DNA of 38,139 bases from Verrucomicrobiota bacterium (lineage in GTDB: Bacteria; Pseudomonadota; Gammaproteobacteria; Nevskiales; Nevskiaceae), in the NCBI GenBank assembly GCA_903970595.1, contig CAJCJI010000016.1, forward strand, positions 1 to 38,139. The letters are read 5' to 3'. Positions 999 to 19,170 of the stretch are shown here, one piece after another. How positions within the stretch are numbered: position 1 is the stretch's first letter; the number at the start of each line of letters is the position of its first letter. The notes below the pieces were generated by a model. It was not told the DNA's origin and ran no database searches. It saw nothing but the letters and a program-made list of their open reading frames with translations. Made by a program: the position numbers and the translations under genes.

Positions 999-2054
999 CT
1001 AGCCGCCGCCCGCCTCGCGGCTGAACAGGAAGAACTGGTCGAGCACGCCGATCAGGTCGCGCACATTGGGATCGAGGATGGTGTACTCGTGCACCCGCAG
1101 GCGAAAGCCGGCCTCGGCAAACAAGGCGCTGCAATCGCGGCGCGTGCCGTCGGCCTCGTAGCTGTAGATCTTCTCCGGCTCGTTGGGCAGCACCAGCAGC
1201 CAGCGCACGTCCAGCCGTACCAGCCATTCCAGCCAGGCGGCGATCGCCGCGTAACTCATCTCGCTGAAGCTGTGGATGTTGACGGCCAGGTCGACCGCGC
1301 CGCGCGGTATGGCCTGCTCCATGTCGTCCAGCGGCACCACGGTCGCGCGGCCCAGGCAGTTGCGGTGGCCCAGGTAGTATTCGCACAGGAAAGTGGAGCG
1401 CGGCACGGCGTCGATGCACCAGTAGCGCTCCACCCCGCCGTGGGCCTCCAGCATGCGGTGCGCCAGGCGGCCGTAGCCGGCGCCGACGTCGAGGATGCGC
1501 GGGCTGGCGCGCCCGAACAGGTCCCAGTGCCGCTCGAGGAAGCACAGTTCGTTGACCGAGTCGAGCAGGTCCCGGCTCAGCAGCGGCAAACCCTCGAAGC
1601 GGAAGGTGAAACAGCCGAATTGGCCATCCTCCCCCAGCCGCTCCAGCAAGCCGCGGCCATCCAGCCCGCGCAGGTATTGCGCGTAGAGGAAATACTTCAT
1701 GCGCGCCTGTTCGCGCACGTTGCGGTACTGCCAGACGTAGGCGTTGTCGCCGCGGAAGTACGGCAGCTCCAGCGCGTCGTCCGCAAGCTCGCCCTGCCAC
1801 AGGGTGTGCCGGCACACCGGCGAGTCGAAGGCGCGGTAGCGGCGCTGCAGTTCGAGCAGGCGCGGGCTGTCCAGGCGCAGCTCGGCTGGCGCGCTGTCCG
1901 GCAAGGGCACCGAGCTGTCGTAGCCGCCGCGCCTGGCGTGGATTTCCTCCTGCGAGATGCGCTCGATGCGGTAGCCCCCGCGTTCCAGGATGCCGCGCAG
2001 CAGCGCCTTGAAGCGCTTGCCCGCCCCGCCCTGCACCGCTTCGTTGGCGCTCAT
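999..2054 (-). CDS. Putative sugar O-methyltransferase (module copy 1)
   Basis: A SAM-dependent class I methyltransferase of about 351 aa, resembling the putative sugar O-methyltransferases of glycan clusters. The SAM-binding motif ILDVGAGYGRLAHR lies at residues 187-200. PYFRGDNAYVWQYR, SRDLLDSVNE and NIHSFSE recur in the protein at 6097-7119, so the two are paralogs. The frame stays open further upstream, but that part lies over the neighbouring GT2 gene in another frame. The ATG at 2054 forms an ATGA overlap with the GT2 stop, which decides the start. The GT8 gene follows. It probably methylates a sugar of the repeat unit; substrate and position are unknown. Confidence 0.85.
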   Translation of the reverse strand: MSANEAVQGGAGKRFKALLRGILERGGYRIERISQEEIHARRGGYDSSVPLPDSAPAELRLDSPRLLELQRRYRAFDSPVCRHTLWQGELADDALELPYFRGDNAYVWQYRNVREQARMKYFLYAQYLRGLDGRGLLERLGEDGQFGCFTFRFEGLPLLSRDLLDSVNELCFLERHWDLFGRASPRILDVGAGYGRLAHRMLEAHGGVERYWCIDAVPRSTFLCEYYLGHRNCLGRATVVPLDDMEQAIPRGAVDLAVNIHSFSEMSYAAIAAWLEWLVRLDVRWLLVLPNEPEKIYSYEADGTRRDCSALFAEAGFRLRVHEYTILDPNVRDLIGVLDQFFLFSREAGGG

Positions 2055-2989
2055 GGCGCCCTCGCGGCGGCGCCGGGGCGCAGCCAGCCGCGCAAGCGCG
2101 CGCTGGCGCGGCCCAGGCCCGGCAGCAGCATGGCGGGATGCTGCAGGCCAAGCGCGGCCGGCGGATAGCCCAGGATCGCCAGCCACAGCTGTGCCGCGCG
2201 AAACCACGGCGACCCCGGATTGTAGTGCTGCGCGATCAGGCGCCGCCCGGCGCGGGCGGCACGGCGCAGCCGCGCCGGCGCGGCCCGCAGATCGGCGGAT
2301 TCGTCGATGACGCGCCACCAGCTCTCGAAGATCTTGCGGGTCTGCTTGTCGCGCTGGTCCGGGTGGCGGCGGAATGCCGACCAGACCGCGTCCACCTTCA
2401 GGGCCGGGGCGCGGAACATCATGCGCAGCCACAGCTCCACGTCGCAGGCAAAATAGCGGCCGTCCCAGCCGCCCAGTTCGCGCGCCAGCGACGTGCGGAA
2501 AAAAGCACTGCTCTGCAAGACAAAAGTCCTCATGCTCAGGAAACGCTCCAGGCTCCAGGCCGGCCAGCGCGTCGGCGCGCTGATCTGCGCGCCGTTCTCG
2601 TCGATCAGATAGGCATCGCCATACACAATGCCCGCCTCGGGGCTGGCCTGCATCGCCGCCACCGCCGCGGCAATGGCGCCGGGCAGATAGACATCGTCGG
2701 AACTCTGGATGCCGGCGATGGCACCTTCGGCGCGGGCCAGGCCCTTGTTCACCGCGTCGGCCGGACCGCCGTCCGGCTCCGACACCCAGACCAATTCGGG
2801 ATAGCGCGCGGCATAGCCGCGCAGGATCTCCACGCTATCGTCGCGCGATGCGCCGTCCATGACCAGGACCTGCAGCGGCCGATAGTCCTGGGACAGGATG
2901 GAATCGAGCGTGGCGCGCAGGTACCGGCCCTGGTTGAAACTGGGCACGATGATGCTGATCAGGGGCGCGGCAGTACCCGACGGTTTCAT
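2051..2989 (-). CDS. Glycosyltransferase family 2
   Basis: Inverting GT-A transferase of the GT2 family, about 312 aa, acting at the cytoplasmic face of the inner membrane. The N-terminus has ISIIVPSFNQGRYL followed by TLDSILSQDY, the classic GT2 opening. VMDGASRDDSVEI supplies the nucleotide-binding acidic residue, and the SSDD near residue 98 is the DXD equivalent. It starts within an ATGA overlap with the GH10 gene upstream and ends in an ATGA overlap with the methyltransferase downstream, so it sits inside a tightly coupled operon. Donor and acceptor are unknown. Confidence 0.9.
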   Translation of the reverse strand: MKPSGTAAPLISIIVPSFNQGRYLRATLDSILSQDYRPLQVLVMDGASRDDSVEILRGYAARYPELVWVSEPDGGPADAVNKGLARAEGAIAGIQSSDDVYLPGAIAAAVAAMQASPEAGIVYGDAYLIDENGAQISAPTRWPAWSLERFLSMRTFVLQSSAFFRTSLARELGGWDGRYFACDVELWLRMMFRAPALKVDAVWSAFRRHPDQRDKQTRKIFESWWRVIDESADLRAAPARLRRAARAGRRLIAQHYNPGSPWFRAAQLWLAILGYPPAALGLQHPAMLLPGLGRASARLRGWLRPGAAARAP

Positions 2990-4212
2990 CGCGCCCTCGC
3001 CGGGCCGGGCCGACGGCGCTGCAGCAGCTCATCGCGCAAGGCCACATAGGCCGGCTTGGGCTGCAGCTGGCTGTCGAAAATGCAGGGCGCCTCGGCGGCG
3101 CGCCAGCTCGCCGCATCGGTGAAGCCCCAGACCATGAAGGTGCGGCAGCGCGGCTGGCCGAGGCAGGCCTCGAGCACATCGCGGTAGACCGCGGCCTGCT
3201 GCTGCAACTGCCCGGGCTGCGCGCCCGGGGCGGCACCCAGGGCGACGTCCAGTTCGGTCACGGCGACATCGAGCTTGAGCGCCGCGATGCGCTGGAACAG
3301 GTCGGCCAGGTAGTCGCTGGCCGGCGCGCCCAGGCCGATGTGGAATTGCAGGCCGACGCCGTCGATCGGCACGCCCTGCGCCAGCAGGCCGGCCAGCAGC
3401 AGCAGCATGCCGTCGCGCTTGGCGATGGCCGAGGGGTAGCCGCTTTCGGTGCCGTAGTCGTTGTAGTAAAGCTTTGCGGAAGGATCGGCTTCGCGCGCAA
3501 AACGAAACGCCATCGCAATGTATTCCGGCCCGATCTTGCGCAGCCAGAGGGTGTCGCGCAGGCCGCAAGGCCTGGGTCCCGGACAGTCCGCCACCGCCTC
3601 GTTGACCACGTCCCACTGCACCACCACGCCCGGGTAATGTGCCCGGTAATAGCCCATGACCGTGGCGATGTGCTGCCGCAGGATGCGGATCCACTCCTCG
3701 CGCGGGAAGTCTCCCTGGCTGAGCCAGTCCGGCAACGATCCATGCCATACCAGGGTATGGCCGCGCACCCTCATGCCGCCGTCCATCGCCATGCGCACCA
3801 CCTGGTCGGCCGCATGGAAGTCGAACACCGCAGGCTGCGGATGCAGCACCGCCCATTTCATCGAGTTTTCGGGGGTCACCATGGAGAATTCACGCAAGGC
3901 CGTGGCGCGATAGTCCCCCGCCCCCGCATACACCGCGCTGCCGATGCCCAGGCCCAGCGGCGCCGCCGCCGCGCGCAGGCTGACATTGGAGGACGGACCG
4001 GGAGCGGCGGCCCCCGCGGCGCCGGCCTGGACCAAGGCCAGCCCCGCCAGCGACAGGCTGATGGCAGCCCAGACAATGGCAGGCCGTGCAGTGAACACCC
4101 GCGCGGCGCGGCCGCGAAGCGCAGCGAAACTCAGATGATGGTCCCTCCGGTAGGGGGCTTCGCTTGTCGCGGGCGCCGTGGCGAACCGCTGTTTTTGGTG
4201 CCCTGCAGCCAA
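2986..4212 (-). CDS. GH10 endo-beta-1,4-xylanase-like glycoside hydrolase
   Basis: A retaining glycoside hydrolase of family 10. HTLVWHGSLPDWL, WDVVNEAV (acid/base Glu), YYNDYGTE, VGLQFHI and VTELDVAL (nucleophile Glu) appear in family order, and VWGFTDAASW with QPKPAYVAL closes the barrel. The usual WHSQ motif is WHGS here. A hydrophobic stretch at residues 44-70 followed by small residues looks like a signal peptide or anchor, so it acts in the periplasm or outside. The start is uncertain: 4212 is a TTG giving a long basic leader. A GTG at 4098 gives a compact signal peptide, and GGAGGGA near 4143-4149 hints at an initiation site between them. Inside a biosynthetic operon it more likely trims the polymer made here than digests plant xylan (inference). 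Confidence 0.88.
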   Translation of the reverse strand: MAAGHQKQRFATAPATSEAPYRRDHHLSFAALRGRAARVFTARPAIVWAAISLSLAGLALVQAGAAGAAAPGPSSNVSLRAAAAPLGLGIGSAVYAGAGDYRATALREFSMVTPENSMKWAVLHPQPAVFDFHAADQVVRMAMDGGMRVRGHTLVWHGSLPDWLSQGDFPREEWIRILRQHIATVMGYYRAHYPGVVVQWDVVNEAVADCPGPRPCGLRDTLWLRKIGPEYIAMAFRFAREADPSAKLYYNDYGTESGYPSAIAKRDGMLLLLAGLLAQGVPIDGVGLQFHIGLGAPASDYLADLFQRIAALKLDVAVTELDVALGAAPGAQPGQLQQQAAVYRDVLEACLGQPRCRTFMVWGFTDAASWRAAEAPCIFDSQLQPKPAYVALRDELLQRRRPGPARAR

Positions 4213-4247
4213 GCCGTGGCATGATCCGATCCTAGCATATGGGCAGA

Positions 4248-4280
4248 CCGCATAGACCGGGGCAAAAGCCGCATAAAGGC
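4248..4280. repeat. Direct repeat, 21-bp period, upstream of the TylF-like gene
   Basis: Two direct copies of CCGCATA spaced 21 bp apart: CCGCATAGACCGG at 4248-4260 and CCGCATAAAGG at 4269-4279. The 13-bp CCGCATAGACCGG recurs exactly at 17161-17173, in front of another EPS gene. Spacing of two helical turns suggests a binding site for a dimeric regulator on one face of the DNA. The function is inferred. Confidence 0.45.
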
Positions 4281-4366
4281 CGCCTATGGACGATGAGGAG
4301 CGGGCGCTGCAACAATCCGCAAAGCCTGCGCCCGGCGCCCGTATCGCCTACGCCAACCGAGAAGAC

Positions 4367-5158
4367 ATGAAAATCCCCAGGCCGCAGCCGCGCCAGTGGC
4401 TCAACAACGTGAAGCAGCGGCTGTTTTCCAGCAGCGCAGCCAGCGCCCCCGGCGGACCGTCCAGGGACCCGCCCTCGCCGGCCGACCAGGCGATCATCCG
4501 GCAGGTGCGCCCCTACACCATGACCAACGAGCTGCGCATCCGCGCCCTGCTGGAAGGGGTCGATTATGTGGTGCGCGCCGGGGTGGAAGGCGCCTTCGCC
4601 GAGTGCGGCGTATGGCTGGGCGGCTCGGTGCTGGCGATGATCCTGCGCCTGCAGCAGCACGGCGTCGGGGATCGCGACATTTTCCTGTACGACACCTTCG
4701 AGGGCATGACCCAGCCCGGCGAGCACGACCTGTCGGATTACGACGAGCCGGCCCTGGACACCTGGAAGCGGGCGGACAGCGAATCGCGCAGGCCCTGGGA
4801 TTTCTTCTTCAAGCCGGAGTTGTTCAACCTCGATGCGGTGCGCCGCACGCTGCTGGCCAGCGGCTACCCGGCCTCCCGCATCCATCTGGTGAAGGGTCCG
4901 GTGGAGCAGACCATTCCGGCCCAGGCGCCGGAGAGCCTGGCGCTGCTGCGCCTGGACACGGACTGGTACGAATCGACCCGCCACGAAATGCAGCATCTCT
5001 ACCCGCGCATCGCCGGCGGCGGCGTGCTGATCGTCGATGACTACGGCCATTGGCAAGGCTGCCGGCGGGCGGTGGACGAATACTTCGGCAGCGGCCAGGC
5101 ACGGCCGGTACTGCTCAACCGCATCGACTACACGGCGCGCATCGCGGTCAAGCCCTGA
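4367..5158 (+). CDS. TylF/MycF-family O-methyltransferase
   Basis: A class I SAM-dependent methyltransferase of the TylF (macrocin O-methyltransferase) type, whose known members methylate sugar hydroxyls using a metal ion. GAFAECGVWLGGSVLAM is the SAM-binding loop, FLYDTFEGMTQP the second acidic motif, LLRLDTDWYEST and GGVLIVDDYGHW the metal and catalytic region. The frame is open to an ATG at 4286. I prefer the ATG at 4367, which has GAGAAG just upstream and leaves the 4248-4280 repeat in a promoter position. It is the only plus-strand gene in the left block, and its 3' end overlaps the convergent GT8 gene by 11 bp, leaving no room for a terminator. Confidence 0.85.
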   Translation: MKIPRPQPRQWLNNVKQRLFSSSAASAPGGPSRDPPSPADQAIIRQVRPYTMTNELRIRALLEGVDYVVRAGVEGAFAECGVWLGGSVLAMILRLQQHGVGDRDIFLYDTFEGMTQPGEHDLSDYDEPALDTWKRADSESRRPWDFFFKPELFNLDAVRRTLLASGYPASRIHLVKGPVEQTIPAQAPESLALLRLDTDWYESTRHEMQHLYPRIAGGGVLIVDDYGHWQGCRRAVDEYFGSGQARPVLLNRIDYTARIAVKP

Positions 5159-6077
5159 GCCGGCGCAAGCGGGCCTGCAAGCGCAAAGCCCAGGCAATCC
5201 AGGCCGGCGGCAGCGGCTTGAGCCAGATACTGAATGCGTCCCGCCCCAGCACCGGCGGCAGCGGAAACCCGCTGTGCCGCATGTGCCGCCACCAGCGGCG
5301 CCGCGCCGGGTGCTTGTTGAGATAGTGCCAGGGCTTGGCCAAGCCCGGCCCCTCGAAATGCCAGATGGCCGGCCGCGCCAGGGCTTCCGCCACCGGCTCC
5401 CGGCCGAACTGCCGCTCGGCCAGCCCGCGCCAGAAATACAGGGAGTTCTGGCAGTTCCAGCGCGGATGCAGGGACAGCCGCTCGGCGGCGAGGGCCAGGT
5501 TGAGCGCGTCCTGGTCCGGCCACAGCACGCCGGCGCCGCGGGCGCAGGCGATCTGCCGCACGCGCTCGCCCAGGCCCAGGCGCATCCGCTCCAGGTCGAT
5601 GAGCAGCACGCCGCTGTTGAAATAGCCGCATCCCTGCGGCAGATCCAGGGCGGTGATCCTCGGCTGCAAACCCGGCTCCACCACATTGTCCACCGCCGCC
5701 ACGCAGCGGCCCTGCAGCGGCATCAGCCACAGCGCGTCGAGGCGGTCGACCACCAGGGTATCCACGTCCAGGTACAGCACCCGCTCCTGCCCGGGCAGCA
5801 GCTCCGGCAGAAACAGGCGGTACCACATAGCCGGACCGAAGTAGTCCGAGACCGGCAGGCCGGCCAGCCGCTCCCCGGCAATGGCTTGGCTGCGCAGCGC
5901 CGCGCCGGGCTGGCCCTCCACCAGCCGGCGCAGCCTGGCCAGTGCGTCCTCCGGCAATCCCGGCGGATGCAGGAAATTCACGGTGATGGCCGCGTCCGGA
6001 TGCAGCGCCAGCAGCGAATGCAGCATGGCGGCGCAGTAGGGCACATACGCCGCATCGGCGGCGCAGGCAACTTCCAT
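5148..6077 (-). CDS. Glycosyltransferase family 8 (module copy 2)
   Basis: Complete GT8 transferase of 309 aa and paralog of the truncated gene at the left edge. It opens MEVACAADAAYVPY, has DVD in YLDVDTLVVD (residues 104-106), NSGVLLIDL, HPRWNCQN and KPWHYLNKHP. A GTG at 6086 lies in frame, but the ATG at 6077 matches the paralog's N-terminus exactly. It follows the O-methyltransferase by about 19 bp, in the same order as in module copy 1. Presumably it adds a sugar to the lipid-linked repeat unit, with a specificity that may differ from copy 1. Confidence 0.9.
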   Translation of the reverse strand: MEVACAADAAYVPYCAAMLHSLLALHPDAAITVNFLHPPGLPEDALARLRRLVEGQPGAALRSQAIAGERLAGLPVSDYFGPAMWYRLFLPELLPGQERVLYLDVDTLVVDRLDALWLMPLQGRCVAAVDNVVEPGLQPRITALDLPQGCGYFNSGVLLIDLERMRLGLGERVRQIACARGAGVLWPDQDALNLALAAERLSLHPRWNCQNSLYFWRGLAERQFGREPVAEALARPAIWHFEGPGLAKPWHYLNKHPARRRWWRHMRHSGFPLPPVLGRDAFSIWLKPLPPAWIAWALRLQARLRRLRA

Positions 6078-6096
6078 CTTGAGCACGGATCGGCTC

Positions 6097-7119: not shown

Positions 7120-7988
7120 GCGCTGGCCTGCTGCAAGGCCGCAGCCTCATCCACCAGGCGCGTCCAGGCGCGGCCCAGCAGACCGCCGCCGGCATCGCCG
7201 CGGCTCAGGTCCAGGGCAAAGGTATCCAGGCTCTCCTCCACGGTTGCATACCCCCGCTGGGCGAATTCGGTGCGGCATTGCGCGCGGTCGGCGGTGCTCA
7301 GGTGATGATGTTCGTAGATCACCAGCGCCGGCCGCCAGCGCCCCCAGTCGATGCGCTTGATGATCTCATAGTCGTAGCCTTCGGTATCGATCTGGATCAG
7401 GTCCACCCGCTCGATGCCGTGCCTGGCGCAAAGGCCGTCGAAGGTCAGGCAGGGCACGTCGGTCTGCACGATGCGCTGCTCCAGCCCCGGGATCTTGTCG
7501 CGGTGCTTGAGGATCACCTCGCGCCGGAACGAGCCCAGGGCGTCATACCAGACCGGCAATTGTTCGCCGGGCGCGGCCTGGGCCAGATGATAGAACGGCA
7601 ACTGACCCTCGCGGTCGGCAATGGCCGAATTCTCGAGCCGGACGCGCGGATGACCGCGGTAGCGGGCGCGCAGGCGCTCGAACACGAACGGCACCGGTTC
7701 CACCATCACCCCATGCCAGCGGCGGTTCTCGACCAGCAGGCGCAGCGGATCGCGCTGCTGCCCGTCGTTGGCGCCGATCTGCAGGAAGCTGCAGCGCGGA
7801 AAGCAATCGGCGAACACCTGCAGGAACCTGGCCGACGGGTAGTCCGGCATGCGCTGCGGCAACAGCGCCCGCACCCGCCGCAGCAGGCGCCAGGCGCCGG
7901 AGTAGCGCGGCACCAGGCGGGTTACGCCGTAGCCGATCCGGTCCAGGGCATCGGCGATGCGCAACTTCAAGCGGGAGGCCGCACTCAT
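7116..7988 (-). CDS. FkbM-family methyltransferase
   Basis: SAM-dependent O-methyltransferase of 290 aa. FLQIGANDGQQRDPL (from residue 68) is the FkbM SAM motif, followed by VMVEPVPFVFERL, LTFDGLCARHGIERVD and the DTEGYDYEII motif of the Methyltransf_21 domain. A longer open frame exists upstream, but it lies over the flippase gene. The ATG at 7988 gives an ATGA overlap with the flippase stop and is the better start. It also overlaps the next gene by ATGA. FkbM proteins methylate hydroxyls on sugars, polyketides or peptides; in this operon a sugar is likely. Confidence 0.88.
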   Translation of the reverse strand: MSAASRLKLRIADALDRIGYGVTRLVPRYSGAWRLLRRVRALLPQRMPDYPSARFLQVFADCFPRCSFLQIGANDGQQRDPLRLLVENRRWHGVMVEPVPFVFERLRARYRGHPRVRLENSAIADREGQLPFYHLAQAAPGEQLPVWYDALGSFRREVILKHRDKIPGLEQRIVQTDVPCLTFDGLCARHGIERVDLIQIDTEGYDYEIIKRIDWGRWRPALVIYEHHHLSTADRAQCRTEFAQRGYATVEESLDTFALDLSRGDAGGGLLGRAWTRLVDEAAALQQASA

Positions 7989-9499
7989 GGAGGCATACCC
8001 GGCCGCAGGTGCATGAGGATATCCGCGATGGTGCGGCGCGAGCCCAGGCTGGCCAGCACCAGCGCCAGGTAGACCGCGGCCATGAACGCCGCCTCGCAGG
8101 GCAGACGTATCCAGACGCTGTAGCTTTCCAGGGCCAGGTGCGCGATCGAGGCGACCAGGGCCGCGGCCACCGCCGCCAGCAATGGCGTCACACACACTTT
8201 GACCACCATGCCGACGCGCAGCTGCGTACCGCGGAAGGCATAGCTCAGGCAGGGCCAGGTGAGCAGCAGCAAGGCTCCCGAGTAAGCCATCGCCACCAGG
8301 CCCACGCCCCAGGTGCGCCCGCCCAGGTAGAGACCACCCACGGTCGCCACCAGCAGGAAGCTCCAGCCGTATACGCCCCAGCGCAGCATCTGGCGCGTGC
8401 GGCCGCTGGACATGTAGAGCCAACCGGTGGAGGACATGATCGGCTGGACGCACATTCCCGGAGCAAACAGGCTCACCAGAAAACCGGTCTGGGTCCATTG
8501 TTTGCCGAGCATGGCCAGCACCAGGTCAGGCCCCATGATGAAGCAGCCGGCGCCGAACGGCATGGACAGCAAGGCCATCACCTCGATGCCGCGCAGGTAA
8601 TAGCGCGCATAGGTCTCCGGTTCGCTCTGCAAGCGGGACAAGGCCGGGGCGGCGATGCTGCCCAGCGGCTGGCTGATGTAGCCGAGCAGGGTTCGCGTCA
8701 GCATGTCGGCGCGGCTGTATTGCCCCAGCGGCCCGGCGCCAAGGAAGCGGCCCATCAACAGCACGCTGCCATAGGTACCGACATAGGCCATCAGGCCGAA
8801 TTGCACCAAGTAGCCGCCGTAGGACAGCATCGGCCAGATTTCGGGGTCGAAGCGGGGCCGCCCCGGCCGCCACTGCGACTGATGCCAGACCAGCAGGACC
8901 GAAATGGCATCGGCGGCGACCACCTGCACCACCAGCGCCCAATAGCCCGCGCCGGCGTGCGCCGCCAGCACCGCCAGGATGCCGCTGGACAAGGCTGAAA
9001 TCACCTGCAGCTTGGAGGTCAGCGCGAACTTGAGCTGGCGCACCAGCAGGGCATTGTGCTGGGCCGCCAGCGCGCCCAGCACGAAGGTAAGGGACAGTAC
9101 GCGGGTCACCGCGGTCAGCCGCTGGTCGCCGTAAAACGCCGCGACCAGGGGCGCACCGAGGCAGGCGGCGATGGTGGCCAGCGCCCCCGCCCCGACATTG
9201 ACCCAGAACAGGGAGTTGACGTGGCTGTCGGTGAGGTTTTCGCGCTGCACGGTGGCGCTGGCCAGGCCCAGGTCGCGGAACACCATGCCGACCGACAGCA
9301 CGCCCATGGTCATGGCGATGACGCCGAAATCCACCGGCGTCAGCAGGCGCGACATCACCGCCACCACACCCAGGCGCAGGAACTGGTTGATGCCCATCGC
9401 CGACACCGTGAGCAGGCCGCCCCGCACCGACAGCGCCTTCAGGCGCCCCAGCGACATCGGTTCGGATGCGTGTTCCCGGCCGTCCCTGGAGGGATTCAT
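7985..9499 (-). CDS. Wzx/WzxC-type polysaccharide flippase (MOP superfamily)
   Basis: Polytopic inner-membrane protein of 504 aa that should flip the undecaprenyl-linked repeat unit to the periplasmic face. The N-terminal region LRLGVVAVMSRLLTPVDFGVIAM, with a conserved RLLTPxDFG, is the hallmark of WzxC-like exporters. It is followed by DLGLASATVQRENLT and a regular series of hydrophobic segments to the C-terminus. A second in-frame ATG at 9457 (MSLGRLK) is an alternative start. It lies 3 bp after the upstream glycosyltransferase. With a flippase, Wzc-like co-polymerase and OPX protein, this operon fits a Wzx/Wzy-dependent pathway. Confidence 0.9.
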   Translation of the reverse strand: MNPSRDGREHASEPMSLGRLKALSVRGGLLTVSAMGINQFLRLGVVAVMSRLLTPVDFGVIAMTMGVLSVGMVFRDLGLASATVQRENLTDSHVNSLFWVNVGAGALATIAACLGAPLVAAFYGDQRLTAVTRVLSLTFVLGALAAQHNALLVRQLKFALTSKLQVISALSSGILAVLAAHAGAGYWALVVQVVAADAISVLLVWHQSQWRPGRPRFDPEIWPMLSYGGYLVQFGLMAYVGTYGSVLLMGRFLGAGPLGQYSRADMLTRTLLGYISQPLGSIAAPALSRLQSEPETYARYYLRGIEVMALLSMPFGAGCFIMGPDLVLAMLGKQWTQTGFLVSLFAPGMCVQPIMSSTGWLYMSSGRTRQMLRWGVYGWSFLLVATVGGLYLGGRTWGVGLVAMAYSGALLLLTWPCLSYAFRGTQLRVGMVVKVCVTPLLAAVAAALVASIAHLALESYSVWIRLPCEAAFMAAVYLALVLASLGSRRTIADILMHLRPGMPP

Positions 9500-9502: not shown

Positions 9503-10657
9503 TCAATCGGTTCCCAGGCGGCGCAGGGCACTCAACCAGGTGCGCATGCACGCCGCCGTCTCGACCAGGAATTCGCGGCCGCCCTCGTCCCAGACGAAAC
9601 CGCGGAAGCGCGGCGCCTGCTGGTCCAGGGCCTCGGCCAGGGACGCATAGGCTTCCCCATAGCTGCCGCCCGACAGCTGCAGCTGCTGCAGCCAGGGCAG
9701 CAGCTCTTCGATCACCACCATGCCGGCCAGCTCGTGATACAGATCCTTGAGCAGGTTGTGCGGCGTGCGCCAGTGCTCGGCCACCGGCGAACCGATGCGT
9801 ACCGCATCGCCCAGGTGCTTGGCGCATTTCTGCACGAAATAGCCGGACAGGATGTCGCCGAAGCGGTCGATGCGCATGCCCTGTAGCGGGAACCCCATGC
9901 GCACGTACCAGTACGCCGGCAGCGCCTGCCGGACCAGCGCCGTATTCTGCGTATTGATCGGGGACCAGGCGGAGGCCCCCAGCAGTACCGGAACGTCCGC
10001 CGCCGCCCGGCCCTGCGGGCGTTGCGCCAGGCGGGTGATGGCGTCCACGTCCGGGTCCTTCAGCCACAGCCCGGCATTGATCGCCACACGGCTGGCGGCC
10101 ATTGCCGCGGGGACGCGCGGCAGCATCGGAGCCGGCACCGCGGTTCTCGCGGCGAACGGAAATCCGCGCGGATGGATGTCTCCCACCGCGCCGAAATCGA
10201 GCAGCGAGCAGATGTTGAACCACTCACCCTGCGCCACCTGGTGGACGCCAAGCTCGCCGCACAGACGCCCCGCCGACTGGTGGCTGCCCACAAAATCGCT
10301 GCCGGCCAGGCAATAGTTGTCGTCGTCGATCGAGATCAGCAGCGGCGTGCCGCTCTCCCAGGCGCGCAGAAAACCGATGTTGCGACGGTTGTCGCTGTTC
10401 CAGGGAATGAAGTCCTCCGGCAGCCCCAGCTGGCGCAGATAGGCGTCCTGCTCCTCCAGGCTGGGACAATCGATCAGAAAGCCCTGGCGCGCGGCGGCGG
10501 CGGCGGCCTCGTAGACGCTGGGCGGGGTCTTGCGGTCGCAGATGATGCGCAGCACCACGTCCCGCTCGCGGCCATGGGCGCGCAGGTCGTCCAGGTAGCC
10601 CTGCAACCAGGCCGGCTCGAAAATGGTGGTGACGACGATGTCAGCAGCGCGTGTCAT
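9503..10657 (-). CDS. Putative glycosyltransferase, RGP/STELLO-like (GT-A fold)
   Basis: A 384-aa soluble protein opening IVVTTIFEPAWLQGYLDDL. NSDNRRNIGFLRAWESG leads into LLISIDDDNYC, an acidic DDDN cluster like that of reversibly glycosylated polypeptides and STELLO (DUF288) proteins. RFGDILSGYFVQ further on parallels the R-F-G-D-I-W element of the same group. It is most likely a nucleotide-sugar-dependent transferase, or possibly a mutase-like enzyme, since plant RGPs include UDP-arabinose mutases. Its start lies inside the end of the upstream methyltransferase (17-bp overlap) and the flippase follows after 3 bp. Assignment rests on motif recall and is moderate. Confidence 0.6.
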   Translation of the reverse strand: MTRAADIVVTTIFEPAWLQGYLDDLRAHGRERDVVLRIICDRKTPPSVYEAAAAAARQGFLIDCPSLEEQDAYLRQLGLPEDFIPWNSDNRRNIGFLRAWESGTPLLISIDDDNYCLAGSDFVGSHQSAGRLCGELGVHQVAQGEWFNICSLLDFGAVGDIHPRGFPFAARTAVPAPMLPRVPAAMAASRVAINAGLWLKDPDVDAITRLAQRPQGRAAADVPVLLGASAWSPINTQNTALVRQALPAYWYVRMGFPLQGMRIDRFGDILSGYFVQKCAKHLGDAVRIGSPVAEHWRTPHNLLKDLYHELAGMVVIEELLPWLQQLQLSGGSYGEAYASLAEALDQQAPRFRGFVWDEGGREFLVETAACMRTWLSALRRLGTD

Positions 10658-11866: not shown

Positions 11867-14035
11867 CTACTCGTAATTGTAGTAATAGGCTTCGTAGTAG
11901 GTATGGTGGCGGCGCGGATCCACCTGGTTGATGATGCATCCGACCAGGTTGCCGTGCACCAGGCGCAAGCGCCCGATGGAATGCTTGACCGCGCGGCGGG
12001 TGGTCTTGTCGGGTTTGACCACGAAGACCACGCCCGGGACGTACTTGCACAGGATCAGCGCATCGGCGCCCACCTGGGCCGGCGGCGTATCGAAAATGAT
12101 GCGCTGGTAGTCCTGCCCCAGGCGCTCGATCAGTTCGTGGAACGCCGGAGAGGCGATGGCCTCGGCCGGGTTGGGCAGGGTCTTGCCGGCGGGCAGCAGG
12201 CTGAAGGGCATATCCGGTACCGCGTGGATGCAATCCTCCAGCTGCGCCGTGCCGCTCAGCAGATGAGACAGACCGGGCGATCCGGCCTTGATGCCCAGGT
12301 AGCGCGCCAGCGAGGGCCGGCGCAGATCCGCTTCCACCAGCAGCACCCTGGAGTTGGTGCCCAGGCCCGCCGCCAGGCAGGCCGCAACCGTGCTCTTGCC
12401 CTCGAACGGCAGCGAGGAGGTGACCATCAGATGCCGTTCCTGCTTGCTCCATTCCGACACCATCAGGGCGGTCTGCACGGAACGCAGTGCTTCGGCGAAC
12501 GGCGAGCGCGGGCTTTCCACTGCAGCGCGCGCCGCCGATCCGTTGCGGGGAAGCTTGGCGATGAGCGGCAGGATGCCGAGCACCGGAACCCGGGTGATGA
12601 CTTCGAGGTCCTCGGCGGAGCGGATCTCCTCGTTGAGCAGGTGGCGCAGCGCGGCCAGGACCACGCCGAACAGCAGTCCGCAAGCGCCGGCAATTGCCAT
12701 CATCTTGAGCGTCCTGGGCTTGAACGGCTTCAGCGGCGCGATCGCCGGATCGATGACGCGCGCATTGACCTCGGCGAAGCTTTCGCCCAGATCGGCCTCC
12801 TTGAACTGACGCAGGAAGGTGTCGAACAGCTGGCGATTGCTGTCGACATTACGCTGCAGCACGCTGGCCTGGTAGGACTTGTCGTCGAAGGCCCGCATAT
12901 GCTCCTGGTTGGAAGCGACCTGCGCGGACAGTGCGGCGGCGTTCTGCTTGGCGATCTCGTATTGCGCCTTGATGCCCTGCGCGGCGACCCGCAGCGACTG
13001 GTAATAGGAACCCCTGGCGGCTTCGAGGCGGCCGCGGGCCTGCTCCATGGCCGGGTGCTTCGGTCCATAGCGCTGCTCTTGCTGGCGGTAGGACTCCTGC
13101 GCGTCCAGATAACTGGCGCTGGCCTTCTGCACCACCGGGTCGAGCAGCAGGGAACTGACGTTTTCGAGCCGCGAGGGATCGTCGCCCGCCGCTTCGATCC
13201 TGGCGTAGGAGTTGGCGAGCGCGGTGACCTTGAGCTGCGCGTCGCGCAGTTCCTTGGAGTTGTCGACCAGCTGCTCCTGCATCAGGTTGCGGTCGCCGCC
13301 GACCTGGACCAGGTTCTGGCTGTCGCGAAACGATTGCAGGCTCTTCTCCGACTCTTCCAGTTGGCCGCGGATGTCGCCGATCTTTCCCGACAGCCAGTCC
13401 ACCGCCTTGCGGGTGATGTTCAGGCGCGCCTGCAGCGCGCTGTCGATGTACTGCTCCGCCACCTCGTTGGCGATCCTGGCGGCGAGGTCCGGGGAAAAGG
13501 AATCGTATTCCACCTTGACCAGCTGGGTGCCGATGACCGGGTCGACGGTCAGGCGGCTCTGCAGTGCGTCCACATAGTTGGCGCGCTTGATCTGTGCCTC
13601 GTTCTCGGCCGGCTTGGAGCCGCCAAAGGACTTCATCAGGGAACTCAACCAGGTGAGCGGACTATATGGCGCCGGCGCCATGTCCTTCTCGAAATCCGGG
13701 TCATCCATGAGCTTGAGCTTGTCCAGCACATGCTCGGCGACGCTGCGCGACTTGAGGATCTCGTCCTGCGAGGCGTAATACTCGAAAGTGCCGGCGCCCG
13801 GATCGTAGATCTCCTTTTGCGTCGGCTCCAGATGGTTGCTCTTGGCCTCGATCAGCAGGGTCAGCGTGGCGCGGTACTGCGGCCGCGAGGCAATGCAGTA
13901 CACCGCCGCCCCGATCAGCGCCAGCACCGCGAAGGCCAGCACGCTCCACTTGTAACGGCCGAGGGTGCGGATCAGATCGGGAAAATCGATCAGCTCGCGG
14001 TCGTCCTCGGGTAGAACGCTTATCTCGGTGGCCAT
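11867..14035 (-). CDS. Wzc-type chain-length regulator fused to BY-kinase
   Basis: An inner-membrane polysaccharide co-polymerase of 722 aa that controls chain length and export by cycles of tyrosine autophosphorylation. The N-terminal Wzz domain starts near residue 15 with a membrane segment at about 32-52. A long coiled-coil periplasmic region follows, then a second membrane segment at about 455-475 after PLKPFKPRTLK. The cytoplasmic kinase has Walker A SSLPFEGKS (residues 540-548; F replaces the usual G), Walker A' LLVEADLRRP, Walker B RIIFDTPP, and a tail with six tyrosines in HHTYYEAYYYNYE. A TTG at 14041 is in frame, but the ATG at 14035 is preferred. It pairs with the OPX lipoprotein and barrel just upstream. 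Confidence 0.93.
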   Translation of the reverse strand: MATEISVLPEDDRELIDFPDLIRTLGRYKWSVLAFAVLALIGAAVYCIASRPQYRATLTLLIEAKSNHLEPTQKEIYDPGAGTFEYYASQDEILKSRSVAEHVLDKLKLMDDPDFEKDMAPAPYSPLTWLSSLMKSFGGSKPAENEAQIKRANYVDALQSRLTVDPVIGTQLVKVEYDSFSPDLAARIANEVAEQYIDSALQARLNITRKAVDWLSGKIGDIRGQLEESEKSLQSFRDSQNLVQVGGDRNLMQEQLVDNSKELRDAQLKVTALANSYARIEAAGDDPSRLENVSSLLLDPVVQKASASYLDAQESYRQQEQRYGPKHPAMEQARGRLEAARGSYYQSLRVAAQGIKAQYEIAKQNAAALSAQVASNQEHMRAFDDKSYQASVLQRNVDSNRQLFDTFLRQFKEADLGESFAEVNARVIDPAIAPLKPFKPRTLKMMAIAGACGLLFGVVLAALRHLLNEEIRSAEDLEVITRVPVLGILPLIAKLPRNGSAARAAVESPRSPFAEALRSVQTALMVSEWSKQERHLMVTSSLPFEGKSTVAACLAAGLGTNSRVLLVEADLRRPSLARYLGIKAGSPGLSHLLSGTAQLEDCIHAVPDMPFSLLPAGKTLPNPAEAIASPAFHELIERLGQDYQRIIFDTPPAQVGADALILCKYVPGVVFVVKPDKTTRRAVKHSIGRLRLVHGNLVGCIINQVDPRRHHTYYEAYYYNYE

Positions 14036-14072
14036 GAGCAAAAAGGGTATTTGAATAAATGGGCGACGGACT

Positions 14073-14669
14073 TCAAAACGTCCGCTCGCCGATGATCAGG
14101 GTGTCGCCGGGGAGCAGCTGCGAGTCCATGGTGACGCTGATGCGCTGCGACTCGGGCGTGTTTTCGCGCTGCGCATACACCCGGCTGGTCGATGCGAAAT
14201 CGGTCAGTCCGCCCGCCAGCGTCACCGCTTCCTGGACCTTCAGCCCGATGGTATAGGGATAGGAGCCCGGGCGGCGCACCTGCCCGGAAATGTAGACCGG
14301 CCGGTATTCGGCCACGTTGACCCGCACGTCCGGATTGACCATGTAGCCGTTGCGCAGGCCGGCGGCGATCACCGCCGCCAGCTGCTGCGCCGTGCGGCCT
14401 GCGGCGGTCACCTCGCCGAGAAACGGGTAGTTGAATTTTCCGTTCGGCTCGATCAGCGGCTTGACCGACAGGTCCGGCTCGCCGTAGACATCGATCTTCA
14501 CCGTATCGCCCGGGGCGAAGCGATACACCGCCGCGTCGAGCGCGGAAGTCGCCGAGAGACGGTGCGCGCCGGTCTGCACCGGTGTGCTGCGCTGCGGCAG
14601 CGGCGCGGCACAGGATACAAGCAGGAACAGGCCTGGGCCTGCCAGTAAGGCAAGGGAACGAAACGCCAT
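14073..14669 (-). CDS. Short Wza/OPX polysaccharide export lipoprotein
   Basis: A secreted lipoprotein of 198 aa with lipobox LLVSC at residues 16-20. The Poly_export domain follows (YRFAPGDTVKIDVYGEPDLS, then FNYPFLGEVTAAG and NPDVRVNVAEYRPVYISGQV) with one SLBB-like domain ending DTLIIGERTF. Full-length E. coli Wza is nearly twice as long and carries extra domains and a C-terminal outer-membrane helix. This protein stops at the periplasmic ring, so it cannot form the outer-membrane pore by itself. The beta-barrel encoded just upstream in the same operon is the obvious partner. It should form the periplasmic conduit between the kinase-linked co-polymerase and the barrel. Confidence 0.92.
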   Translation of the reverse strand: MAFRSLALLAGPGLFLLVSCAAPLPQRSTPVQTGAHRLSATSALDAAVYRFAPGDTVKIDVYGEPDLSVKPLIEPNGKFNYPFLGEVTAAGRTAQQLAAVIAAGLRNGYMVNPDVRVNVAEYRPVYISGQVRRPGSYPYTIGLKVQEAVTLAGGLTDFASTSRVYAQRENTPESQRISVTMDSQLLPGDTLIIGERTF

Positions 14670-14705: not shown

Positions 14706-16079
14706 TCAATCCGCGGCAAACGCGACCTTGACGCCCGCAAAGACGTCCGCGCGGCTGTAGTCGGCTCCAACCACATTGGAGTCGCGCCGGCCGAAGGCTC
14801 CAGTGCCGTAGACCGACACGGCGCGCGTCACCGAATAGGAGGCATACACGGCGCCGAAATACTGATGGTCTACGCGTCCGGCATTGTCGTTGACGAATTT
14901 CAGGTCGACCGCGTTGGCCGTGGCACGGGTCAGCAACAGCGGGGACCAATGTTCCGTCCAGTTCAGGGCGACGGATTGCACGTCGAGGAAGCCGCTCGAG
15001 GTCAAATAGCTTTGCTGGCTGCTTTGCCCGGCATCCAGGGCGAACTCGCGATAACGCGCCGGATTCCACCGCACGGTGGCCAGCCAGTCGAAGCCGGTAA
15101 ACGCCGGCTGCGCGCCGCCGACGAATTCGCGTTTCAGGGCGCCCACGCGCAGGTCGCCCGAAGTCTTGGCCGTGGCCAGCCAGCGCACGCCGCCGAGCAC
15201 CTGGTACAAGGTGCCGCCCTGGTTGGCCTCGCCCGCATAAATATTGGGGGTCTGCACCTGCGTGGCGCTGAAGTCCACCAGCAACTGGGTCTTCGGCGAA
15301 ATGGCGTAGTAGACGATGCCCTGGCCGGTCAACTCGTTGTAGTCCAGGTAATTGGAATAGAACTGATTGGTGTAGTAGGTCTTGTCCAGGGCGGAGATCG
15401 AGCCTTCCACCGACAAACCGGAGATGGATACGCCGTGCAGCCAGTTCAGCGACACCGAACCCATGCGCCAGTCGTCGAGTTGCGCCGGATTGATCACGCC
15501 GCCCTCGGTGCGATTGGTGCCGAATGGATCGTGCCCCATCACCAGACTGCCGTTCAGACCGAGGCGGTCTTCACGAAAGGGCTCCCAAAATGCACCGGTG
15601 GATACGATGGCGTCGGCGTAGTCGTCGTGCTGGCCCGGGGAATTGAGGGTCTGCAGGGTCGCGCCCGCCACCGCCCTGAACTGCAGGCGCGGCAGATTGT
15701 CCTGGTAAGCCACGATCGGCTGCAGCGCCCAGCCCCAGGCCTGAACCTTGTTGGGGGCGCTGTCCGTCATGTAATACAGGTTGTCGGTAAAGGTGCGGGC
15801 CAGGCTGGCGCGCGCCATGAACAGCCGGCCAAGTCCCGCGCTTTCCTCGCCCGGCTCCTGGGCCGAGGGGCTGGTGGACGCCGACGGACTCGGCGGTCCG
15901 CCGTTGAACGGCTGCCCCGGCATCACCAGGGATCCGGTTGAACCTGCCGATGCGGCATCCGATGCGGCATCCTGCGCAGCCGCGGACATGACAGCCCCGG
16001 CCGCGGCCGCGGCGCAGGCCACGGCCAGCAAGCCGCGAACTGCCTTTTGCGGAGCGGCCAACGTCTCGCGTTTACACAT
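14706..16079 (-). CDS. Outer-membrane beta-barrel of the EPS exporter (EpsL/BBP2-like)
   Basis: A 457-aa outer-membrane barrel. A cationic start, a hydrophobic stretch and an AxA-type site before QDAAS form a signal peptide (about residues 1-36), then a low-complexity Pro/Ser segment to about residue 75. The rest alternates polar and aromatic residues in amphipathic strands: ASLARTFTDNLYYMT, WALQPIVAYQDN, LQFRAVAGATLQTL, and a closing FAGVKVAFAAD with a penultimate-strand Phe. This fits the BBP2/EpsL-like barrels found in EPS loci. It is first in its operon, followed by the short OPX lipoprotein after 36 bp. Role as the outer-membrane pore for the polymer is inferred from fold and position. 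Confidence 0.82.
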   Translation of the reverse strand: MCKRETLAAPQKAVRGLLAVACAAAAAGAVMSAAAQDAASDAASAGSTGSLVMPGQPFNGGPPSPSASTSPSAQEPGEESAGLGRLFMARASLARTFTDNLYYMTDSAPNKVQAWGWALQPIVAYQDNLPRLQFRAVAGATLQTLNSPGQHDDYADAIVSTGAFWEPFREDRLGLNGSLVMGHDPFGTNRTEGGVINPAQLDDWRMGSVSLNWLHGVSISGLSVEGSISALDKTYYTNQFYSNYLDYNELTGQGIVYYAISPKTQLLVDFSATQVQTPNIYAGEANQGGTLYQVLGGVRWLATAKTSGDLRVGALKREFVGGAQPAFTGFDWLATVRWNPARYREFALDAGQSSQQSYLTSSGFLDVQSVALNWTEHWSPLLLTRATANAVDLKFVNDNAGRVDHQYFGAVYASYSVTRAVSVYGTGAFGRRDSNVVGADYSRADVFAGVKVAFAAD

Positions 16080-16303
16080 GCATCCCCCTGAATTTTGACG
16101 GAGCCTTTTTTACTGGCCAGCGTACGAAATCGCTGCCGATAGTAAGCGCGGAAGCGGCTCAGCGTCCATAGCCGGCGGGACAGCAATATATCTTTACGCT
16201 ACAAACGATTGCACCGCCAACCTGAACGACGCCATCTTGTGATGACACGACTCAGGCCTCATCCTAGCAAATCCTCCCAAACATAAAATCATCCAGGAGA
16301 ACC

Positions 16304-17146
16304 ATGCGGGCATTGAATCGAGTGGCGCGCGCGATGCTGCCCCGGCCCTGGATTCCGGCCGCACGGCAGCTGGCGGTACGGGCGGGCCTGGTGCGGGACC
16401 AGCCCCTGCGTTACCCGTTCTGGGAGACGCTGCACCATTATCCCTCGCCGCGGCCGCATTACCGCTGGGGCACCCTGTGCGCGGCCTTCCTGGCCAGGCA
16501 ACTGGGCTACCCGCGCATTTCCGTCATCGAATTCGGGGTTGCCGGCGGCGACGGCCTGCTGGCGCTGGAAGCGGTCGCGGCCGAGGCTGCGGCCGCGGCC
16601 GGAATAGCCATCCACGTCTACGGGTTCGATTCCGGAACCGGGCTGACCAAGCCGCAGGACTATCGCGACCTGCCGCAGCTGTGGGCCGAGGGCGACTACA
16701 AGATGGACGTCGCCCGCCTGAAGAGCCGGCTCAAGACCGCGCAGCTGGTGCTCGGGCCGGTGGCGCAGACCGTGCCGCAGTTTCTCGCCGGCGGTCCGGC
16801 GCCGATCGGCTTCGTGGTGTTCGACCTCGACCTGTATTCCTCGACCATGGACGCTTTCGGCATTTTCCGCGCCGCGGACGAGGCGCTGCTGCCGCGCGTC
16901 ACCTGCTATTTCGACGACATCATTGGCTACTCGCACAGCGATTTCAACGGCGAACGCCTGGCCATCGCGGACTTCAACCGGGCCAATGAAATGCGCAAGA
17001 TCTCCCAGATTTACGGCTTGCGCCACGCCCTGCGCCTGGACCAGTGGTGGACCGACATGATGTACATGTTCCACGCCTTCCAGCATCCGCGCTACCAGGA
17101 TTTCGACGGCACCAATCCCTGGAGGGAAATTCCTCTTTCCGGGTGA
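16304..17146 (+). CDS. Class I methyltransferase-like protein
   Basis: A 280-aa soluble protein with a Rossmann-like SAM motif, VIEFGVAGGDGLLALE (about residues 73-88), an acidic second motif YGFDSGTGLTKPQDY, and VFDLDLYSSTMDAF plus TCYFDDIIGYSHSDFNG where TylF-type enzymes place metal-binding acids. It is probably another O-methyltransferase of the glycan, although sequence outside these motifs is not one I can name. The start is firm: AGGAGA lies 6 bp upstream of the ATG. It heads a plus-strand group and is divergent from the barrel gene across a 224-bp gap. Confidence 0.68.
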   Translation: MRALNRVARAMLPRPWIPAARQLAVRAGLVRDQPLRYPFWETLHHYPSPRPHYRWGTLCAAFLARQLGYPRISVIEFGVAGGDGLLALEAVAAEAAAAAGIAIHVYGFDSGTGLTKPQDYRDLPQLWAEGDYKMDVARLKSRLKTAQLVLGPVAQTVPQFLAGGPAPIGFVVFDLDLYSSTMDAFGIFRAADEALLPRVTCYFDDIIGYSHSDFNGERLAIADFNRANEMRKISQIYGLRHALRLDQWWTDMMYMFHAFQHPRYQDFDGTNPWREIPLSG

Positions 17147-17160
17147 TCGCTTCCGGGCCA

Positions 17161-17377: not shown

Positions 17378-17405
17378 ATAACGATTGCGGGGTGGGCTTT
17401 ACATC

Positions 17406-18125
17406 ATGGACGAATTGTCCGTTCATAGAGATTTGCTGCGGCTTGCATCCAGGGCGCCGCAAAATCCACAGCAAAACCTTTTACCGGTCGAATTTGTATG
17501 GATCGAATCGGGATACTGGTCGCGCCTGATCAAACGCGGCATCGACATCGCCGGCAGCCTCAGCTTGCTGCTGCTGCTATCCCCCTTGCTCGCGGTGGTG
17601 GCCTGCGCCGTGGCGCGCAGCGGCCGGCCGATTCTGTTTGCCCAGGCGCGGGTCGGCCTCGGCGGAAGGATCTTCCGCTGCCTGAAGTTCCGCTCGATGA
17701 GCCCGGGCGCCGAGGAGATCCTCGACGAACTGCTGCGCAAGGATTCGGCGCTGCGTCAGGACTGGGAACGCGGGCAGAAGCTGAAGAACGATTTCCGCAT
17801 CACCCCGGTCGGCGCGATACTGCGGAAATGGAGCCTCGACGAACTGCCCCAGCTGTGGAATGTGCTGCGCGGCGACATGAGCCTGGTGGGGCCGCGCCCC
17901 GCCCTGCCCTCGCAGATGGAGATCTACGGCGCTTCGGCGGCGGTCTATTCCTCGATGCGGCCGGGCATCACCGGCCTGTGGCAGATCACGGCCCGCGGCG
18001 ATATGAACTTCAAGCGGCGCGTCGCCCTGGATTGCGAGTACGTGGAAAACTTCACACTGGGCAAAGACCTGGTGTATCTGTTGAAAACCGTACTGGTGGT
18101 ATTGCGCCGGGACGGCGCGCATTGA
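17406..18125 (+). CDS. Undecaprenyl-phosphate sugar phosphotransferase (initiating)
   Basis: Polyprenyl-phosphate sugar-1-phosphate transferase of the bacterial sugar transferase family, which starts the repeat unit on undecaprenyl phosphate. At 239 aa it is the short form: one membrane segment (about residues 45-70, LSLLLLLSPLLAVVACAVA) followed by the catalytic core KFRSMSPGAEE, KWSLDELPQLWNVLRGDMSLVGPRP and PGITGLWQITARGD. The multi-span N-terminal half of WcaJ/WbaP is absent. The ATG at 17406 with GGGGTGGG upstream is the start. It is the only initiating transferase in the window, so one or both export systems may depend on it. Confidence 0.95.
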   Translation: MDELSVHRDLLRLASRAPQNPQQNLLPVEFVWIESGYWSRLIKRGIDIAGSLSLLLLLSPLLAVVACAVARSGRPILFAQARVGLGGRIFRCLKFRSMSPGAEEILDELLRKDSALRQDWERGQKLKNDFRITPVGAILRKWSLDELPQLWNVLRGDMSLVGPRPALPSQMEIYGASAAVYSSMRPGITGLWQITARGDMNFKRRVALDCEYVENFTLGKDLVYLLKTVLVVLRRDGAH

Positions 18126-18174
18126 GGATTGCGCCGCACGGCGGCGGCACCTCGATTGACGGCGGGATCCTGCG

Positions 18175-19170
18175 ATGATGCCGGCCCCGCAGCCCGAGAC
18201 TTCGATTGCGGCGGCAGGCTCGCGCAAGCTGCGGCCCTGGCTGCCGGACTTCCTGATCGTCGGGGCCATGAAATGCGGCACCTCCAGCATGCGCGCGGCG
18301 CTGCGCCTGCATCCGCAGATCTTCATGCCCGACGGCGAGATCTTCTTTTTCGACATCGACGACTTCCAGCAGCACCCGGACTTTTTTGCCTACGACGGCC
18401 GCCGCTGGACCCTGCGCGATTTCGACGGCGAACTGGAACGCTACCTGGAGTGGTATGCCCGTTTCTTCGCGCAGGCCAGGCCCGGACAGCACGTGGGCGA
18501 GGATTCGACCACCTATCTGGTCTCGCATCAGGCGCCAGGCCGCATCGCCAGGCTCAATCCGGACATGCGCATCATCATCATGCTGCGCGATCCGGCCAGC
18601 CGCGCCTACTCCAGCTATTGGCACCTGGTGCGCTACGGCCGCGCCGTATTCAGCTTCGAGGACATGCTGCGGCTGTGTCCGGAGGCGGTGGTCCAGCGCA
18701 GCTACTACAAGCAGCAAATCGAACACTACCTGCGCCATCTTCCGCGCCGCAATCTGCACTTTGTCCTGCTCGAGGAATACGTCGCGGCGCCGGCGCAGGT
18801 GCTGGACGGGGTCTGCCGCTTCCTCGGCGTTCCGGCCGAACTGCTGCCGGCGCAGACCGGCGCCAGGCACGACAATCGCGGTGCGGCGCCGCGCTGGCCG
18901 CGCTTGCAACGGCTGCGCAACCACCTGGCCTGGAAGCGCGAATCGACCCAGTTCCTGGCCCATCTGCCCGACCAGGGCGGCGGCATCCGCCCCGGGTACC
19001 GGCGCAGCCTCGCAGACCGGCTGTACACGCGGCTCAACCCTTCGATTCCTGCAACCGAGCCGATGCGGCCCGGTACCCGCGAGTTCCTCAACAGGCTGTT
19101 CGAGCGCGAGAACCGCGGCCTTGATGAACTGATCGGCAAAGACCTGACACGCCATTGGTACCGGGACTGA
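18175..19170 (+). CDS. PAPS-dependent sulfotransferase
   Basis: A 331-aa cytosolic sulfotransferase that should move sulfate from PAPS to a hydroxyl or amine of the polymer. FLIVGAMKCGTSSMRAAL (about residues 23-40) is the 5'-phosphosulfate-binding loop with its catalytic Lys, and IIIMLRDPASRAYSSYWH is the 3'-phosphate-binding motif. GEDSTTYL lies between them as in heparan-sulfate-type enzymes. It follows the sugar transferase by 49 bp and overlaps the GH71-like gene by 16 bp. No PAPS-forming genes are present in the window, so the donor must come from general sulfur assimilation. A sulfated exopolysaccharide is the natural reading. Confidence 0.9.
   Translation: MMPAPQPETSIAAAGSRKLRPWLPDFLIVGAMKCGTSSMRAALRLHPQIFMPDGEIFFFDIDDFQQHPDFFAYDGRRWTLRDFDGELERYLEWYARFFAQARPGQHVGEDSTTYLVSHQAPGRIARLNPDMRIIIMLRDPASRAYSSYWHLVRYGRAVFSFEDMLRLCPEAVVQRSYYKQQIEHYLRHLPRRNLHFVLLEEYVAAPAQVLDGVCRFLGVPAELLPAQTGARHDNRGAAPRWPRLQRLRNHLAWKRESTQFLAHLPDQGGGIRPGYRRSLADRLYTRLNPSIPATEPMRPGTREFLNRLFERENRGLDELIGKDLTRHWYRD

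Follow-up and report, generated by a model that had tools for sequence, protein, structure and literature searches.

What kind of glycan is built by a gene cluster in which six methyltransferase genes lie among genes for glycosyltransferases, a sulfotransferase and polysaccharide export? We addressed this question for a stretch of 38,139 nucleotides (hereafter the window), which is the entire contig C16 of a metagenome-assembled genome (MAG) whose 534 contigs total 5.15 Mb and whose completeness is 86.88%. Open reading frames (ORFs) judged plausible were screened with Pfam and NCBIfam profiles. A first-pass annotation had proposed six methyltransferase genes from at least three families, acting on a single glycan with many substituents. 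All six genes are present (three TylF-like, two NanM-type and one FkbM-type), and the single glycan is well supported by the export genes and by a gene set that recurs in related bacteria. From the sequence we consider it somewhat more probable than the sum of its alternatives that the locus specifies an exported Wzx-type exopolysaccharide (EPS) that contains O-methylated L-fucofuranose and sulfate, and probably xylose as well. The key element of the cluster, unremarked in that annotation, is the gene at 9503-10657, a predicted MtdL-type GT75 mutase. It is listed here with two genes that accompany it in relatives.

9503-10657, minus strand: glycosyltransferase family 75 (GT75) nucleoside diphosphate (NDP)-pyranose/furanose mutase, MtdL/Hyg20 type; 314 bits to MtdL structures, residues 7-381 of 384
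2051-2989, minus strand: GT2 transferase, candidate furanosyltransferase; PF00535 84.7 bits; co-occurs with GT75
10641 to about 11870, minus strand: TylF2 O-methyltransferase with an N-terminal extension; PF05711 57.7 bits, above cut-off; start approximate

MtdL and Hyg20, from the A201A and hygromycin pathways, are described in PMC9937993 (2023) as the only two characterized bacterial members of GT75. Taking the roles of MtdL residues from that paper, we found that D87, D109-D111 (the DDD metal motif), R159 (the acceptor Arg), D195, Q229, R257, D260, H287, R289 and H292 are kept in all seven members of an alignment (A1) of the window GT75 with six homologues. T13 and D195 of MtdL correspond to residues 10 and 203 of the window protein, both invariant in A1. 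Arabinofuranose made by a plant-like UDP-arabinose mutase had first been raised because of a match to the Pfam RGP profile, which is only modest at 42.3 bits, together with the presence of a GH10 xylanase. It was set aside on the scores, 314 bits to MtdL versus 28 bits to the UDP-arabinopyranose mutase 8cid.

The MtdL-type GT75 is uncommon among the genomes surveyed. PF03214 matched in 5 of 100 relatives, host included. Of 369 genomes of the class searched with A1 at E <= 1e-20, six gave a match: strong in the host, G060 and G195, distant and nearly full-length in G307, and weak and partial in the other two. At E <= 1e-50 the host stood alone among the 398 genomes of a phylum sample. One scan of genome contigs gave three GT75 loci, in an Ectothiorhodospiraceae MAG, a Gammaproteobacteria MAG and an Acidobacteria MAG, the first two apparently already counted among the relatives. 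Distant GT75-like genes (25-28%) were also seen in L099 at 7775-8761 (minus strand), where the gene adjoins a GT2, and in L086 at 15703-16686 (minus strand); both keep the DDD motif and the acceptor Arg and lack D87 and H287. Among its plasmid homologues, some matches to the window GT75 carry a STELLO family annotation. Among the literature matches listed, no bacterial polysaccharide was assigned to GT75, subscription papers being mostly outside that search.

To see what accompanies the mutase, we compared window proteins with stretches of 12-40 kb from ten relative loci (G022, G028, G060, G061, G064, G067, G070, G195, L013 and G307), calling homologues at 120 bits and assigning them by the best tblastn match rather than by trees. 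The GT2 transferase was found in 6 of the 7 non-window loci with a GT75 match (all except G307) and in none of the three TylF1-bearing loci without such a GT75. A GT2 homologue at E <= 1e-40 occurred in 6 of 100 relatives, namely five with an MtdL-type GT75, plus G050 (Fisher p 8e-8, uncorrected for kinship, as are all our co-occurrence statistics, which were calculated after the loci had been inspected). In G050 the GT2 homologue adjoins a 28% GT75-like gene in which the DDD motif and R159 are kept and D87 and H287 are not; a similar 25% gene in G064 stands without the window-type GT2. TylF2 was present in 4 of the 7 loci with GT75 (4 of the 6 other MtdL-clade loci) and in none of the three TylF1 loci lacking MtdL-type GT75. 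In those four relatives its homologues (48-56%) immediately adjoin GT75. The N-terminal extension of TylF2, about 170-200 residues, is also found in both homologues aligned with it.

Genes for a fucose precursor were also found near the mutase. In G060, G061, G067 and G070, GT75 shares its contig stretch with gmd and fcl, the genes of GDP-L-fucose synthesis, and with a gene for UDP-glucuronate decarboxylase (UDP-xylose synthase, UXS). The gmd products are above cut-off in all four, the fcl products in two (the others score 493 and 472 against a NCBIfam cut-off of 500 bits), and the UXS proteins are 73-82% alike, that of G070 matching 4gll at 438 bits. The distant GT75 of G307 also adjoins fcl and a gmd-like gene, while on the 12 kb Acidobacteria contig with GT75 neither fcl nor gmd was seen. 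The host encodes gmd (592 bits) and a 76% UXS, on C435 and C43 respectively, both off the window contig. In G064 the genes for TylF1, UXS, fcl and gmd directly follow one another; this row, which does not depend on any MtdL-type GT75, gives a hint that TylF1 may act on fucose.

This module is set in a broader group of genes, six of which (TylF1, Wzx, FkbM, NanM, GT8a and GT8b) we treated as a core. These and the remaining methyltransferases are as follows.

1-958, minus strand: GT8a glycosyltransferase, cut by the contig end; PF01501 117.7 bits; homologues in relatives' clusters
999 to about 2054, minus strand: NanM-type O-methyltransferase 1 (NanM1); TIGR04371 59.8 bits, cut-off 44; start approximate
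4286-5158, plus strand: TylF1 O-methyltransferase; E 2.4e-21 to NovP; PF05711 above cut-off
5148-6086, minus strand: GT8b glycosyltransferase; PF01501 110.6 bits
6097-7119, minus strand: NanM-type O-methyltransferase 2 (NanM2); TIGR04371 49.6 bits, cut-off 44
7116 to about 7985, minus strand: FkbM-type O-methyltransferase; PF05050 69.8 bits, NCBIfam 71.1 bits; the ORF extends to 8498, start approximate
7985-9499, minus strand: Wzx-type flippase; PF13440 252 bits
16304-17146, plus strand: third TylF-like methyltransferase; weak profile matches (E 0.025 Methyltransf_24, 0.0064 CalS11), motif kept

The methyltransferase placed by the first-pass annotation at 4367 is the TylF1 gene, for which that start is an in-frame ATG at codon 28; a long ORF overlying it on the minus strand (4232-5686) is antisense. 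The TylF motif D.D.Y..T ... (D/E)D is kept in all three TylF-like genes, with DD in the one at 16304-17146, which has no PF05711 match and is assigned as TylF-like by the motif only. An AlphaFold model of its product, built from a single sequence, was too poor to use (pLDDT 41). In the host MAG, both TIGR04371 matches and two of three PF05711 matches fall inside the window, with rough odds of chance placement, calculated post hoc, below 0.01 for each family.

Searching 100 relatives with TylF1 returned eight genomes (host, G022, G028, G060, G064, G067, G070 and G099), of which G099, at 37%, was left out of further comparison. Counted as distinct places, all six core genes are held by G022, G028 and G070, five by G064 and G067 and four by G060 and G061, and these genomes span three families of the order (f1, f4 and f5). 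Homologues of TylF1 reach 56-62% identity in six relative loci and those of NanM1 up to 61%; the clusters of seven related genomes each contain 3-5 genes matching window methyltransferases at 120 bits or more. G022, G028 and G064 have no MtdL-type GT75, yet carry GT8, NanM, FkbM and Wzx homologues near TylF1. The order Wzx-FkbM-NanM2-GT8b-NanM1-GT8a in G022 is that of the window, with TylF1 located elsewhere. In G195, homologues of GT8, GT2 and FkbM occur alongside Wzc and Wza, and TylF and NanM are lacking. No core gene was found in L013 or G307, nor in EPS-like loci with WbaP and UXS in G001 and G004, and no second copy of the core was seen in host contigs C160 and C43 (whole) or in parts of C435, C299 and C317. 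Since related bacteria share this core as a set, the concentration of decorating enzymes in the window is real.

The window also contains further decorating and degrading enzymes.

18175-19170, plus strand: 3′-phosphoadenosine-5′-phosphosulfate (PAPS)-type sulfotransferase; PF13469 66.8 bits; both PAPS-type motifs kept
about 23600-24841, plus strand: OafA-type O-acyltransferase; PF01757 86.6 bits; start approximate
20800-21792, minus strand: SGNH/GDSL hydrolase; PF13472 30.9 bits, just below the cut-off of 32.9; GDS and D..H motifs
2986-4212, minus strand: GH10 endo-xylanase-like protein; PF00331 306 bits, 236.6 bits to 1xyz; both catalytic Glu contexts kept
19155-20795, plus strand: GH71-like glycosidase; PF03659 79.3 bits

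The sulfotransferase is thus where the first-pass annotation had it. The acyltransferase and SGNH hydrolase that it also named exist, and both fall outside its interval of 999-19170. The sulfotransferase scored 112 bits against 3rnl and 72 bits against heparan sulfate 3-O-sulfotransferases. Its strongest relative in the loci compared (53%) lies between GT75 and TylF1 in G067, and weaker relatives occur in stretches of G064 (101 bits), G050 (61.6 bits) and G070 (55.5 bits). Resting mainly on the G067 locus, it is plausible that sulfate is placed on the same glycan as the methyl groups. Among plasmids, its best homologue (Anabaena, 38.5%) adjoins sugar-nucleotide genes; no EPS export genes were found in the 12 kb flanks of that gene, the PLSDB gene tables being incomplete. 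The two glycosidases sit inside a synthesis cluster. Their hydrophobic N-termini suggest that both are exported, and the GH10 protein would fit xylose in the glycan, given UXS in the relatives.

The export machinery is represented by these genes.

11867-14041, minus strand: Wzc-type co-polymerase/tyrosine autokinase; PF02706 and PF13807; TIGR01007 116.8 bits, above cut-off; TIGR01005 292.9 bits, below cut-off
14073-14669, minus strand: Wza-type export protein; PF02563 74.6 bits, SLBB
14706-16079, minus strand: outer-membrane beta-barrel (BBP2_2/EpsL-like); PF10082 58.1 bits
17385-18125, plus strand: WbaP-type initiating sugar-phosphate transferase, catalytic part only; PF02397 205.5 bits; TIGR03022 276 bits, below the full-length cut-off
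21789-23501, minus strand: polytopic membrane protein, candidate polymerase or GT-C transferase; no family above cut-off; start approximate

The window therefore contains an initiating transferase, a Wzx flippase, Wzc and Wza, all components of a Wzx/Wzy-type pathway. Since it spans the whole of C16, the export cluster is interrupted within GT8a at position 1. Host contig C160, on which no other window homologues were found, has a 56% paralogue of the polytopic membrane protein (L074:6-1745) at its truncated end; an AlphaFold model of the protein built from four sequences was too poor to use (pLDDT 50). Beyond these genes, S-formylglutathione hydrolase and S-(hydroxymethyl)glutathione dehydrogenase genes (24830-26931, minus strand, both above NCBIfam cut-offs) adjoin the methyl-rich cluster, and a second polysaccharide-type block (30955-37850, minus strand) has Wzz-like and XrtA-type-like tyrosine-autokinase genes (below cut-off), a GT4 and a tetratricopeptide repeat (TPR) protein bearing a GT9-like end.

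Several observations weigh against the fucofuranose EPS proposed here. Of the MtdL residues that select GDP (T13, N42 and S86), the T and S are kept in the window GT75, whereas the base-contacting N42 is replaced by K; S228 is likewise replaced by T, and the GDP and fucose specificity of the enzyme is uncertain for these reasons. A search for fcl in the host MAG at E <= 1e-30 gave no match, the MAG being incomplete and the cluster cut at the contig end; the genes tested next to host gmd on C435 resemble YjbF, sulfatases and beta-lactamases, with no fcl among them. In G195, which has an MtdL-type GT75, 40 kb yielded no fcl and, for gmd, just a weak match. In G307 the distant GT75 is missing D87 and H287 and so supports the fucose link less. 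No Wzy polymerase was established in the window, the only candidate being the membrane protein at 21789-23501, for which there is no family match above cut-off. The locus of G061 has no match to the window Wzx; instead, a pair of genes resembling Wzm/KpsM and Wzt of ABC exporters (L016 13229-15326, plus strand, below NCBIfam cut-offs) follows GT75, so that the glycan may differ between genomes. This arrangement also suggests that the glycan genes combine with different exporters. Finally, a sulfotransferase at 120 bits was present in only 1 of the 10 relative loci, that of G067.

Part of this evidence would fit the same exported, multiply methylated glycan with a different furanose, if GT75 acted on GDP-L-galactose or another NDP-sugar. 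The two substitutions in GT75 and the lack of fcl in the host favor such a substrate, as does the report that MtdL and Hyg20 also convert GDP-L-galactopyranose (PMC9937993). We nevertheless think it unlikely, if worth keeping in view, as the GT75 clusters of four relatives include both fcl and gmd, and the host, whose MAG is incomplete, has a strong gmd. A more improbable explanation is an ordinary heteropolysaccharide around which decorating enzymes were gathered by local gene shuffling, with several unrelated sugars as substrates of the methyltransferases and a lipid or a different glycan as that of the sulfotransferase. The patchy genes speak for it: seven further PF13469 sulfotransferase loci occur in the host genome, a separate NanM2 place was seen only in G022 and a homologue of the gene at 16304-17146 (55%) only in G064 among the ten relative loci, and neither glycosidase has a 120-bit match in any of them. 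It fits poorly with the finding that seven genomes from three families each share four or more of the six core genes, and with the co-occurrence of GT2 and GT75 across 100 genomes. A small glycosylated secondary metabolite might be suspected from the antibiotic sugar methyltransferases among TylF relatives in the PDB and from the antibiotic pathways of both characterized bacterial GT75 enzymes. This we consider very improbable, since no polyketide, peptide or nucleoside scaffold family was found among the window ORFs scanned, and Wza, Wzc, BBP2_2, WbaP and Wzx are all present.

For the O-methylated L-fucofuranose EPS that we prefer, the genes suggest the following route. The WbaP-type enzyme would start the repeat unit on the lipid carrier, and GT8a, GT8b and GT2 would extend it. 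GT75 would convert a GDP-L-hexose, most likely GDP-L-fucopyranose, to GDP-L-fucofuranose, from which GT2 would transfer the L-fucofuranose. TylF2, and probably TylF1 too, may methylate the fucose residue; methylation at other positions, or of other sugars, would fall to the NanM and FkbM enzymes. The unit would be sulfated by the sulfotransferase before Wzx flips it, and beyond the cytoplasm its O-acylation may be adjusted by the acyltransferase and SGNH protein. Export of the polymer would depend on Wzc, Wza and the BBP2_2 barrel, and the GH10 and GH71 proteins might trim it. Extending this beyond the window, we give even weight for and against the proposal that a GT75-GT2-TylF2 module, fed by gmd and fcl, installs O-methylated L-fucofuranose in bacterial surface polysaccharides. 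Such a route to a furanose would be independent of flavin and lie outside antibiotic pathways, and it would be grafted onto a recurring glycan core that is rich in methyl groups, sulfated in some cases and served by interchangeable exporters. If so, GT75 would be tied to surface polysaccharides, and GT2 would be named as the likely transferase for L-fucofuranose.

Marine Alteromonas make sulfated polymers. For this reason, and because a literature listing includes Pontiella with sulfated exopolymers, the statement in PMC8205485 (2021) that sulfotransferases are, to its authors' knowledge, not found in the EPS clusters of other bacteria is not absolute; the window would be a non-cyanobacterial candidate. 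The synechan xss cluster of that paper likewise has a sulfotransferase within a Wzx-type EPS cluster, whereas the term methyltransferase is absent from that text and the window has six methyltransferase genes and a predicted furanose mutase. The same trio of modifications as in the window is described for the Nod factors of NGR234, with methylation by noeI (on fucose), sulfation by noeE and acetylation by nolL (PMC4881576), but these are lipo-chitooligosaccharides. Homology of the window FkbM to NoeI was unsupported, as none of the four plasmid records that it matched is rhizobial (NoeI itself was not compared), and the likeness is for this reason one of analogy only. MtdL and Hyg20 are the closest to the window GT75, which was compared with MtdL rather than Hyg20 and resembles it over nearly its full length and in its kept catalytic residues; they belong to antibiotic pathways, in contrast to a predicted GT75 that lies among polysaccharide export genes and has GT2 as a companion. 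The nearest parallel for the product is the CDP-D-fucofuranose capsule of Campylobacter jejuni HS:41 (PMC12369002), in which fucofuranose is part of a surface polysaccharide, as predicted here, but is made by an FAD-dependent mutase from a CDP-D-sugar, whereas the window enzyme is of the divalent-metal GT75 type and presumably acts on a GDP-L-sugar.

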